Source: Xiphias gladius | Lineage: Eukaryota > Chordata > Actinopteri > Istiophoriformes > Xiphiidae | Direction of reading: 5' to 3' | Assembly: GCF_016859285.1 (NCBI RefSeq) | Contig: NC_053415.1 | Coordinates: forward strand, 19,327,501 to 19,391,500 | Length of the DNA: 64,000 bases | In this document: positions 37,401 to 43,400 of the stretch, piece by piece | Position numbering within the stretch: the first letter of the stretch is position 1 | Layout: each line of letters starts with the position of its first letter | Notes under the pieces: model-generated | What the model was told of the DNA's origin: nothing | What the model saw: only the letters and a program-made list of their open reading frames with translations | The model's database searches: none | Program-made: the position numbers and the translations under genes

Positions 37401-40400
37401 AGATTGAGAGAGAAAGAAAAAAGAGAGACAGGCTGTAGCAGCTGTACTGTCTGCACTGTGCTTGGCTTGGCATGGTTGGTATAAAATGTGGTGTGTCCTG
37501 GCCAGTGCCTTGGCCAAATTTCCCAGCCGGCCAGTATGAGGGACCATAAATCATATTAACGATCCTGACCCCAGAAACGCCACTACTGCTCTTGGTAAAA
37601 GGTGTGAAATACACACCGAGCACATATGGCACAGCATGGAGAACATATGGACTGTGAGAAGAGGTGAAGCAGAAGATAGAACCAGAGAAGGAGAGAGGCA
37701 CATACATTCAAATGTCTATTGTATATATTCAAACACAGATCATGTGCTAAATCAAGAGCCATGAGTTTGATGTCTTCTCCTGTAAATACACAGCTGCGGA
37801 AGAGAGTGTTAGAGAGTGTTGACAGGAGAGGATAACCTGAGGTAGTTGCTTGGGAAGAGGGAATGAGAGGATGGGAAGTGAGTACTCCATTACCCCCAGT
37901 TGTGCTGGAGCTGTGAGAAGAGGTGAATGTCTTGGATGGAGAGACTGGTCTGACACCAGTACGAGAGGAATGAGTAGGAACCCTGGTGCGAGACAGCGTG
38001 TTGTTTCTTCCTGCTGGAGGAACTGATGAGCTAATGGGAGAGCGAGGGACTTCGGGAATGGATGATGTGTGGTCACCAGTACCTATATGTGCAGAAAGGC
38101 AATTGGGGAGGTTAGGGGTGATCCACTTCAAAAGTTGACAGCTTTACCTAAATGGAATAAATGATAGAGCACATCAGTGAAAAGAATGTAGAAGAGTGGA
38201 TAATGAATGGAATGACAGAGACACATAAATGAGATCAAAAGCTAACCAGACTGCTCTGGTTGTAAATGGGCAGGGGTGAGGTGACTGTGCTGGACTGAAA
38301 ATGGAGGCACACATGGAGGCACGGATAATGATGGGGTGGGGTGTGTAGAGTGGTAGGATGGAGATGGAGATGGGGAAGCAGCAACATCATCCAGTGGTTT
38401 GAAGTACAACTGAAAGCACTGGGTTCCACGTGACTTGACGAAAAAGCAGAGATGGTAATGCAACACACATGTCATGGTGTTTACCATGATTGTAACTACC
38501 AGCTCTCTCTGTAGCCAGGGCAGGTCTTGGTAGAGGCTTGCCCTCTTCTGGTGGACTAGGAGCTGTATGAAAGAGAACTCACTTTTTTATCTAAGATAAT
38601 ATGTATATGAAAATATTTTTGTCTTTTAAAGGGGGCATTTCCTACATTTGTTTTGTAAAATACAAGGGGAAGATGGCTGGTTTTAAATCAATGCAGCTAA
38701 AAAGGGTATTTGTTGTGATCATGGTATCCATTAGTTGTAAACTCATACATCTATTAAGACAATGCTGAACTTAGGAAGACCAATTTATGTCACAAGTGCA
38801 TATGGACTCTCAGTTTCTTTTTACCAATTCTGAAAATCGGAGGAATTTATTAACATAATTCCAACAATAATTTGAAATGACATTTGTCATTCCAACAAAA
38901 CGAATCAAATTCTTTTGAATTGTGTTTAAAGAAAAAAAAAAGAAACCCCTGTATAAATACAACCAAAATTTCAAATCAATATGCCCCTTTCAAAATATTA
39001 TTTGAGATAAGGTCTTAATGCTTAATATTGGATTGCTGATGGCAAAAAGTAGGGACTTTACCAGTAGGGACTGTCTGCCTTGGGGTGATCTTGGTGGGAT
39101 CAGAGGAGGTCTTGGTCTTAGGCTGAAACGAAAGCCCGGGTTGAGGTTGTGGTTTGGGCCTAGATGCAGGGTGTGGCTTGGGTAGAGGTACAGATTGGGA
39201 CTGACCCTGGGTCTTTGGTGGAGAATGCAGTTGGGGAATCGGTTGAGTATTAGGTATGGGCTGGGTCTGGGTCTTTGTTAGTGGTTGTGATTGGGGCTGT
39301 GGTTGTTTTTTTGGCTGAGTTTGTTTTTGATCCCTGGTTTGAGGCTTTGGCTGTTTTTTTGGCTGAGATGGTAGTTGAGGCTTTGGCTGCATTTTTGGGT
39401 AAGATGGTGGTTGGGGCTTGGGTTTGCTCTTTGGTTGAGGTTGTGTTTTGGGCTTGGGTTTGAAAAAATTGATCTTTGGTTCAGATGTTTGTTGAGCCTT
39501 AGGCTGCTTCTTGGTGTTTAGCTGAGACTGTGGGTTGGTCTTGGGTTGAAGCTGTGTTTGGGTTTGTGGCTGAGCTGTAGATTGAGATTGTGGTTGAGGT
39601 TGGGGCTGGATGTGAATCTGTGGTATTGCTCGTTGGGTATGAGGTATGTGCTGGGTCGTTTGTTGAGGTGTATGAGGATGTGACACAGATGTGAACTGGG
39701 GAGTGGATTCAACGTGCGGTTGAAGCTCAGTTTTGGTCTTTATTTGAGGTCGTGTTTGATGCTGGTCCCTGTTTTTGGGGTGGGGTTGAGGTTGTGGATC
39801 TACCTGGAACTGGGTTGTGGTTTGAGGCTGTGTTTGGAAATATGGCTTTGGCTTAGACTGTGATTGAGGCTGGGTGTGGAGTTTCGGCTGGGGTGGTTTT
39901 TGGGTTTGACTTAGGGTTTGGGGTATGGGCTGTGATGTTGGTTGGGGTTGTGGTTGAAGTTGGGTCTGGGATGTGGGCTGAGATGTTGGTTGGGGTTGTG
40001 GATGAGGTTGGGTCTGGGATTTTTGTTGGGATTGTGGTTGAGGTTGAGTCTGTGGTGTGAGCTTTGATGTTTGTTGGGGTTGTGGTTGGGTCTGGGGTAT
40101 GAGCTGAGATGTTGCTTCTGGTTGTGGTAGGGTGTGGGGTATGAGCTCAGTTGTTGGTTCTGTTTGTGGTTGGGCCTGGGGTACCGGGTGGGATTTTTGT
40201 TGGGGTAGTGGTTTAGGTTGAGTCTGGAGTAGGAGCTTTGATATTGGTTGTGGTTGAGGTTGAGTCTGGGGTATCAGCTTTGCTAATCTTTGTGGTTGAG
40301 TTTGGGGTATGAGCTTTGCTATTTGTTGTGGTTGAGTCTGGGGTATGAGCGTTGATGTTGGTTGGGGTTGTGGTTGGGTCTGGGGTATGAGCTGAGGTGT

Positions 40401-43400
40401 TGGTTGTGGTTCGGTCCGAGGTACCAGCTGGGATGTTGGTTGGGGTTGTGGTTGGGCCTTGGGTATGGGCTGAGATTTTGTTTGTGGTTGGGTCTCGGGT
40501 ACTGGCTGATATGTTGGTTGGGGTTGTGGTTGTGGTTGGGTCTGGGGTGCGGGCTCGGATGTTGGTTCAGGTTGTGGTTGGGTCTTGGATATGGGCTGAG
40601 ATTTTGGTTCAGGTTGTGGTTGTGTCTGGGGTACGGGCTGGGATGACGATCGGGGTTGTGATTGTGGCTGAGTTTGGGAATAGGATTTTAGCTGAGGCTG
40701 AGCCTTTTCATGGAGCTTTACTTGAGGGTGTTGGGGTTGGGGCTTTGGTTGTGGTGTTTGTCTATACTGTGGCTGGAGCTGCTGGTTTGGTAAAGGCTGT
40801 ATGAGGGGCTTTTGTTGTGGTTGACTCATAGGGTGCCCTCCATATTTTTCAACATGTGTCTGGAGGACTTGCACAGACGCCATGGTGGGTGTAATGTGTA
40901 GTGGAGGACGGAGCTTGGGAACTAATGGGACTTCCAGGAAAGGAGGCAAGACAGATCTGGAGAGGTCTCCTCCTCCTGGGTGGTCTAAGAGAGAGAAAAT
41001 ATGGCCATGAAGCCACAGTACTGTGCTGTAAAATATAATTTTAATATAATATCCTATAGGAAACATTCCTTTACAAAATGTTTAAAAACAAAATATAATT
41101 TTATTATCTAGAAAACGATGAAAGAAAGAGATAAAGACAGTTAAGGAACAACTGAAATTTACATCAGCATAAGTGCCAACAGCTACTGGCCCAAGAACTC
41201 AGAGCTGATGTTGGACTAAAGCACAGGTTATACAATAACTCCTGACTGGCAAGAATCTGATGAAGGGTGTCCAGTTTCAAAGGCAGACAGACCATATGGA
41301 GGTATTTGCAATGTAACATCCGTGTTACTACAGACAGACTCAGCTACCGGGGCCGGGACTCCTGTGAGTGATAACCATCCAAATCCATTGGCTGTGCCGC
41401 TAAGAGACAATGACACATGAGGGTTTAATAGTTGCTGATTGATTGCTTGCTGTGGGATTTTGATGGACCATTCTAAATTGATTGTTCAATCTGATCAGGT
41501 ATTCATCTCAGGGAGAGAGAATGTCAGAAAAAGAGGAAGTCAGAAAATAAGAGAGTGATAAATACAGCAAGAAGGCAAGCAAGAAATAAATAACATGGCA
41601 TTTCAGGTATTTAGTGCCTCTACTCAACTTTGCCTAAATGGAGACTATAGCTGTGTTTGAATTCAGGGACTGGATCTTGCAAAAACTGCAGCCCATCAAA
41701 GCGGGTCTTTCTGAAGTTGATCCTCTTCCCCAAATGAGACAGCCTAGCTTCACAGACACCAAAACTGTGGTGCTTGGATGTACTCCTTGTTCATTTTCAA
41801 GTCAATAATTTTCCTCTTCATCATAAAGAACTTGTCTTCAAATGCTCAACAAAGCACCACAAAATACAAAATTGGTAGCCAAGCTCACAGTTTCATTTCA
41901 GCACGATGGACTGCCTGAATCTAAATGCCTGGTAAATATGTTGTCCCATAAAATTTTCTGAGAGAATGAGTTGACAAGGATCACCTGTCTACCATCGCCA
42001 CTACAGTTTGGACTGTGGGATAATAAGGGTTGCAAAGAATACAACAATTGCATCCCTCAAATTCAGGCTGCATTTGAAGGAACCTTTGAAATTGAACAGG
42101 TCTATTTGGTTGTAATCAGCTGTATCCATGCCCTGAATTGGGACATAGCATTTGTATGGAAAAAACCCTTGCTTTGTTTGATACGAACCAAGGTTACTTG
42201 TAAATATAATAACAGAAAAATGTTAGAGAAGGGGACATGGGACAACAGGGTAGTACAGGTTCAAGAAAAAAGAAGATAAGAGATATTCTGCTGAAGTTCC
42301 TGCTGGACAGAGAGGAATGTCTGGTGCATGCAGATCTGTCATGCAGACTTCACACAATCGCCTTCCTTGCATTGAAAGCAAAAGCCTTAGATTTGTAATC
42401 AGCAAAAATTGTGATGAATGATCATACTGTAAATACTAAAAGAAAAACGATGGGTTTAAAGTGGTGAAGAAATGAGAGGCAGATAAAAGAAAATTAAAAA
42501 ATGGGTATATTTGAGATATGACTGATCTGAATTTGCAGCACCTAAACAAGGGTCTCAGTAGTGGCTAAAAGTAAACTCTTTCTCAAGACTGGGAATGGTC
42601 CTCTACAGTACTTTTTGGTAGTGGGCTTGTCCACCAGATTTCCATTTCAAGTCATGTCTTGTGATAAAATTGTGTAAAATATACCGAGCAAATCAGTCAT
42701 TGTTAAAATAACTGAAAAAAATATAACAGATCCTTAATCCCATCATTAAGAATCTTTTCAAGCTTTGTTGTTTTACTAAAATGCCATGCAGCCAAGGCCA
42801 CCTACCTTACACTCATTGCAACCCAAATAGCTGATACCACCAGCTGGTTTCCACTGGGAGGGCTGAGCTACAGTACTTACTCATAGCATGCCACTCTTGC
42901 TCATGCAGCTAATTACAAAGATCACTGTAAAGCACTGAAAGCCTCTCAATTCAGTCTGCCAAGTCTATGATTGCAGCCGGAATGAGAGCCATGAAGCTTT
43001 TCAAAAAGAACTATGATTCACAGTTTACCGAGTGGCTGTTTGGTGACCACAGGCAGTGTGGGTCCAGGGGTCGACAGAGATTCCTGTCTAGTAGTTGTGG
43101 TTGGAGCTGAGAAATATAGTGTATGTTAGTAGACGTCGGAGAAAAGTTATTACTACAAGTCCTATAGAATGTACAAAAAATGGTGTATGTACAGTAAACA
43201 ATGACCTAAGACTTACAGCAGGATAAAAGAAAGAGTCAAGAATGGTCAGACGTAAGGTCAAGAGTTTTTTTCTGACCGCTGAACTCATTTTTAGGTCAGA
43301 AAAGTCATTACCAAGAGTTGTCTTTGAGGCTATATTCCAGGAGACGGGCACTCTGCCCTGCGTCTTGTTATGGACAACTGACAAGGACAAAGGAAGAGAG

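Follow-up and report, generated by a model that had tools for sequence, protein, structure and literature searches.

Exon 9 of the abi3bp gene of the swordfish (Xiphias gladius) encodes 641 amino acids (aa) rich in proline and glutamine, and it lies in the 64,000-nucleotide (nt) window analyzed here (NCBI RefSeq assembly GCF_016859285.1, contig NC_053415.1, positions 19,327,501 to 19,391,500; coordinates below are counted from the first letter of this window). We favor, with reservations, the reading that in the abi3bp genes of percomorphs exon 9 encodes a splice-toggled, disordered, probably polyproline-II-like, extended spacer with proline at about every second residue (X-Pro). The parts of this reading that were demonstrated are the coding frame, the conservation, the block architecture, the proline alternation and the presence of predicted isoforms of both kinds.

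The swordfish abi3bp coding region spans 26484..56780 on the minus strand from start to stop, with 23 exons in isoform X3. The gene model (56780 to 26484) was assembled with fish homologues as a guide, with the addition of a 66-nt exon (43377-43312), a 30-nt exon (28643-28614) and longer exons 10 and 11. The finished model was identical at 1443/1443 residues to the NCBI protein "target of Nesh-SH3 isoform X3 [Xiphias gladius]" (P0139), and 15 of its 23 exons are of phase 1-1. Pfam analysis of P0139 identified TARSH_C (PF21731) at residues 1317-1440 (172.6 bits, cut-off 27) and fn3 (PF00041) in two stretches (64.8 bits). Judged by TARSH_C, the two FN3 modules and the full identity to X3, the gene is abi3bp/target of Nesh-SH3, as the preliminary description had proposed from the DNA. 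As to the teleost copy (a or b), 5 of the 20 matches in the first protein search with exon 9 carried the name "binding protein a". The exon numbers used here are those of the initial model; exon 9 (40984-39062) is the tenth of 23 in X3. The exons concerned are as follows.

Exon 8, 43029..43106, minus strand: phase 1-1, upstream neighbor of exon 9, donor for the inclusion junction and for the skip junction of X12.

Exon 9, 39062..40984, minus strand: 1923 nt, phase 1-1, 641 residues, the same as in NCBI Xiphias X3.

Exon 10, 38485..38562, minus strand: long form (a possible shorter one ends at 38500), predicted to be co-spliced with exon 9.

Exon 11, 37837..38082, minus strand: long form (a possible shorter one ends at 37894), whose acceptor is the one joined upon skipping of exons 9 and 10.

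Exon 9 has the acceptor TTTCTCTCTCTTAG and the donor side GTAAAG. Its phase-1 frame contained no stop in 640 whole codons; the remaining sense frames had 12 and 16 and the antisense frames 21, 22 and 49. The encoded residues comprise P 23.4%, Q 24.1%, K 8%, T 11% and S 7%. A stop-free 641-residue exon of phase 1-1 with this acceptor and donor had been called at the outset, and X3 uses exactly both sites; the accompanying estimate that it makes up about 45% of the predicted protein agreed with the 44.4% found for X3. The same DNA could in principle be a non-coding, CA-rich intronic minisatellite that is open by chance, since its repeat units are visible in the DNA and stops are infrequent in a sequence so poor in T and G. 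A stop-free frame appeared, however, in 1/3000 composition-matched simulations (0/1000, 1/1000 and 0/1000 with Markov models of order 1, 2 and 3, respectively), and the head, the tail and both ends of the exon recur in the protein models of 33 species, NCBI models included. This explanation was rejected on the frame, the simulations and the 33-species alignment, and we consider its probability close to nil. At its 5′ boundary the exon has a double splice site.

Tandem acceptor, 40976..40984, minus strand: ttag, followed by ACCACCCAG and then by GAGGAG, with the outer site used by Xiphias X3.

The second in-frame acceptor lies 9 nt inside exon 9 and gives the start GGGDL; among the 33 complete homologues the exon start was of the inner type in 26, of the outer type in 4 and incomplete or oddly joined in 3 (P0002, P0003 and P0008). 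No Pfam family was found within exon 9 at E up to 1. A search of the 690.8-Mb swordfish genome with the exon 9 DNA gave one match, itself, which is weak evidence of uniqueness because the search skips simple repeats.

Conservation was analyzed in predicted proteins of other fishes. The first exon-9 search yielded 20 proteins, 18 of them from named fishes (annotated as Abi3bp, target of Nesh-SH3, FN3-domain or hypothetical proteins); the wider protein search was used with its best 120 of 2779 matches, and a head-anchored search scored 12 candidates. Both ends of exon 9 were present in 38 of the 142 fetched proteins, and removal of five rows left 33 species. The comparison with other fishes that had been suggested beforehand therefore covers 33 percomorph species, in whose predicted models exon 9 is complete, with 241-712 aa, P 16-26%, Q 14-24% and 0-2 Cys. 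An origin of the exon in the swordfish lineage alone was thereby ruled out. We take the named matches among the best 120 to be percomorphs, and the 33 species presumably fall in Carangaria, Ovalentaria, Pelagiaria, Eupercaria and Anabantaria; if this placement is right, exon 9 predates the split of these groups. The alignment of the 33 species divides the exon into three blocks.

Head block, 40737..40976, minus strand: about 80 aa, kept in length and position.

Core block, 39900..40736, minus strand: 279 aa in swordfish and 31-319 aa in the 33 species, containing most of the tandem repeat.

Tail block, 39063..39899, minus strand: basic and Pro/Gln/Lys-rich, 279 aa in swordfish with a median of 274 aa in the 33 species.

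Mean occupancy relative to swordfish, in bins of 40 residues, was 0.91-0.96 for residues 1-80, 0.13-0.65 for residues 81-360 and 0.83-0.93 for residues 361-638. Median block lengths were 80, 99 and 274 aa for head, core and tail, and these blocks contributed 0%, 63% and 37% of the variance in exon length, respectively. The tail was more basic than the core in 28/33 species (median net charge +9.8 vs +6.1 per 100 aa). This difference and the high Gln and Lys content would fit a basic binding or cross-linking segment, in which the Pro/Gln core does no more than present a Lys/Gln-rich tail that attaches to glycosaminoglycans or is coupled to other proteins by transglutaminase. Composition alone is nevertheless weak evidence for such a role, which we judge quite unlikely as the explanation of the exon while noting that it is compatible with a spacer.

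The description of exon 9 as a tandem-repeat exon was correct in part. Tandem Repeats Finder detected overlapping arrays with periods of 12, 24, 36, 42, 48, 78 and 84 nt, each a whole number of codons; the main array (39914-40689) is present, but it fills the middle of the exon only, and two small arrays lie at 39339-39462 and 39550-39598. Self-alignment of the exon (60-nt windows, offsets 12-899) gave 9540 nt at an identity of at least 0.70, with every offset divisible by 3, and the longest exact DNA repeat in the one swordfish genome is 36 nt. This length hints at modest copy-number polymorphism in swordfish, and the longer exact repeats of Amphiprion or Sander at a greater degree of it. Exact internal repeats exceeded the maximum of 20 shuffles in 23/33 species, among which long ones of 23 aa in Sebastes umbrosus (P0142) and 39 aa in Amphiprion ocellaris (P0026) suggest recent duplication of units there. 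The other 10 species showed no such excess; 7 of them have an exon 9 shorter than 400 aa, and their cores measure 31-46 aa in six and 43 aa in another (Anoplopoma), too short to hold an array. A minisatellite that had grown "in this fish lineage", as first supposed, finds no support in an exon that is complete in 33 percomorph species and free of excess exact repeats in 10 of them. The simplest account of these 10 is that the exon is older than the array, and on the sequences the array is most simply read as a later, uneven and repeated addition to the core of an older exon.

The prolines of exon 9 follow a register of two. Summed over the 33 species, proline pairs at spacings of 2, 4, 6 and 8 occurred at 1.50-1.64 times the shuffle expectation and pairs at spacings of 1, 3, 5 and 7 at 0.32-0.47 times (0.36 at spacing 3). 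Spacing 2 was above all 300 shuffles in 20/33 species, and spacing 3 fell under the 5th percentile of shuffles in 32/33. The alternation was found in core and tail alike and weakly, or in part, in the head, and the residue between alternating prolines was most commonly Q and second most commonly K. As far as these protein sequences indicate, the X-Pro register drifts less than the identity of the residues.

The older name, target of Nesh-SH3, together with the high proline content would suggest an array of SH3 ligands. The alternation, however, lowers the number of PxxP motifs in swordfish exon 9 to 8 vs 34.5 in shuffles, an approximately four-fold depletion (all 1000 shuffles had at least 8), and class I and class II ligands numbered 2 and 1 vs 3.3 and 3.4 expected. 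This depletion and the scarcity of spacing-3 pairs argue against SH3 ligands, as does the description of ABI3BP as an extracellular matrix protein. The SH3-ligand array was rejected on the PxxP depletion in swordfish, and we regard it as very improbable.

The preliminary description also envisaged a Pro/Gln-rich linker between the FN3 modules that forms a rod. The linker and its position were supported. AlphaFold2, given 16 sequences, predicted no fold for exon 9, with a mean predicted local distance difference test (pLDDT) score of 44.7 and no helix or strand element. Alternating X-Pro chains tend toward polyproline II and stiffness, and on this ground, together with the observed alternation, exon 9 is read as an extended spacer. 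The alternation thus favors an extended chain, but with low AlphaFold2 confidence the rod itself is an inference.

That exon 9 is a cassette, as had been proposed, is supported by predicted swordfish isoforms with and without it. Isoforms X12 (780 aa) and X13 (732 aa) lack exons 9 and 10, and their skip junctions connect 43029 (exon 8) or 44660 (exon 7) to 38082 (exon 11). The skip junction anticipated earlier, 43029-38562, was not the one used, since exon 10 is lost too. The skip models that we built have 776 and 728 aa; X12 agrees with its model up to an ISFSG-for-S replacement at the exon 14/15 join, while X13 was compared by length alone (732 vs 728). This replacement, found in X12 and X13 at 31061-31185, makes an alternative acceptor at the exon 14/15 join likely.

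Linkage between exons 9 and 10 was counted in 121 of the 142 fetched proteins, after exclusion of 21 lacking exon 11. Exon 10 was present in 36/37 proteins with exon 9 vs 1/84 without it (Sparus X4, P0024), giving a Fisher P value of 1.8e-28 for isoforms and species that are non-independent and nearly all predicted models. Predicted isoforms with and without exon 9 were found in 18 species, each checked singly: Xiphias, Stegastes, Amphiprion ocellaris, Dicentrarchus, two Sander, Seriola lalandi, Trachinotus anak, Platichthys, Perca, Embiotoca, Anoplopoma, Toxotes, Thunnus maccoyii, Scomber scombrus, Eleginops, Gasterosteus and Sebastes umbrosus. Six further proteins, 753-760 aa long, are full-length (M to GKW) and lack exons 9 and 10. 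They come from contigs of 3272-3825 nt, which should be spliced cDNA of the skip form given the 30-kb coding span in swordfish. According to these models, exon 9 is predicted to be a symmetric 1-1 cassette that is usually skipped together with exon 10, leaving the frame unchanged.

Several observations weigh against the spacer reading, and a number of them concern expression. The six transcript-like contigs all lack exon 9, and the two contig proteins that contain it (P0013 and P0020) look genomic. The case for inclusion of exon 9 in mRNA is built on predicted models, from NCBI and elsewhere, and on its conservation. P0006, P0011 and P0015 hold pieces of exon 9, indicating that some models splice within the exon, and Cyclopterus P0107, one of the 33, is labeled LOW QUALITY PROTEIN; the intact frame accordingly holds as predicted only. 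The Limanda tail has 40 aa, perhaps a model error. The spacing-2 excess did not beat all 300 shuffles in 13/33 species, and the short-exon species could have lost an array rather than others having gained one. Identity to swordfish at aligned positions (median of 28 species) was lower in exon 9 (head 0.63, core 0.55, tail 0.54) than in the N-terminal module (0.93), the C-terminal module (0.95) and exons 10-15 (0.80), in a comparison made at the protein level. Mismatches among repeat copies showed no third-position excess, with 0.30, 0.20 and 0.29 at codon positions 1-3 (identity 0.75); they thus give no sign of selection on exact residues, and a neutral linker would look alike.

Such a neutral, slippage-prone disordered linker, which would be translated but whose length and sequence matter little and whose core grows and shrinks through replication slippage, free of selection, is the main rival. 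It would explain the approximately three-fold length range, the repeats that differ among species, the low identity beside the FN3 modules and the pattern of copy mismatches. Less readily explained by it are the occupancy of head and tail in most of the 33 species, the charge difference between tail and core, the extension of the proline register into the tail and the frame-keeping of every detected repeat offset. We therefore hold the neutral linker to be unlikely, while giving it serious weight.

Other features were noted in and around the gene. A GC-type donor (GCAAGT) follows the exon that ends at 29186 (29184-29186). The GC-AG intron of ABI3BP that is kept from human to zebrafish is reported to be the first intron (PMC7242645); the first intron of swordfish abi3bp begins with GTAGGT, unlike the reported one. 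An abi3bp intron contains a transposase fragment matching PF01498 HTH_Tnp_Tc3_2 (34843-35316), and the last abi3bp intron a reverse-transcriptase fragment with a PF00078 match below cut-off (26979-27440). Another transposase fragment, Tc1-like by eye and without a Pfam match, lies upstream of the first coding exon (57878-58408). Elsewhere in the window are an open frame with a Jagunal domain (PF07086, 146 bits), jagn1-like, at 6388-7005, a frame resembling TFG without a Pfam match at 14709-15188, and a collagen-like repeat of 18-nt period with an open antisense frame at 407-1038. TFG is a neighbor of ABI3BP in human.

Work on heart (PMC6426741) and cartilage (PMC9239745) has dealt with ABI3BP, a protein of the extracellular matrix. 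The longest human isoform has 1786 aa, and a cassette region for disordered parts is included to a greater extent in cartilage with high-grade osteoarthritis (PMC9239745). Other reports describe 10 mutually exclusive exons in a cluster (PMC5740500), a splicing change in breast cancer listed in a tumor survey table (PMC4446417), and zebrafish abi3bpa as a marker of undifferentiated connective mesenchyme (PMC12912267). Swordfish thus resembles human in that the same gene has a disordered middle altered by splicing (PMC9239745), but differs in that one 1.9-kb exon supplies 641 residues with proline alternation. Exon 9 can be regarded as a form of the disordered, splice-variable ABI3BP middle in which a single exon holds most of that region. 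The initial impression was that it had no description; it is present in the NCBI predicted gene set, and in the literature no paper on the exon was found among the matches listed (judged largely on titles and abstract beginnings).

The architecture of swordfish abi3bp resembles that of lubricin in that one long exon carries in-frame repeats between folded modules. PRG4 exon 6, which encodes the lubricin repeats, is large, and these repeats are Ser/Thr-rich and of mucin type. Salivary basic proline-rich proteins and the chondroitin sulfate region of aggrecan are likewise encoded by a long single exon whose tandem repeats keep the frame and whose length is polymorphic, but their composition and function differ from those of exon 9. 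Lubricin, like the swordfish protein, is a matrix protein in which a single exon (PRG4 exon 6) holds imperfect repeats, whereas the alternatively spliced PRG4 exons are 2, 4 and 5 (PMC5902402). Domain II of TonB contains proline-rich segments with Pro-X1-4-Pro repeats that are "expected to form" polyproline II (PMC12204202). TonB is an unrelated bacterial periplasmic protein, and its likeness to exon 9 is one of physics only.

In the proposed mechanism, exon 9 would insert a long spacer that separates the N-terminal FN3 module from the C-terminal FN3-TARSH_C module, and alternative splicing would toggle exons 9 and 10 jointly with the frame kept. Cells could then produce a matrix protein that is either compact (in swordfish 732-780 aa) or much longer (1443 aa). 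With the polyproline-II rise of 0.31 nm per residue, the 641 residues would extend to about 200 nm at full stretch. The work of the spacer would probably be spacing and reach, not binding, and the basic tail may help it stay on acidic matrix. A stronger version, put forward tentatively and with our leaning slightly against it, holds that the X-Pro register and the basic tail are selected, that core length was tuned independently in several lineages, and that exons 9 and 10 are spliced as a unit, placing the FN3 ends either near each other or at a distance of up to about 200 nm.

A single pair of exons appears, in these fishes, to switch the greater part of the ABI3BP linker in or out, and core length differs naturally between relatives, so that the function of linker length in a matrix protein would be testable by removing one exon. 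Exon 9 is also a case of a conserved exon whose tandem repeats seem to be later and uneven arrivals.

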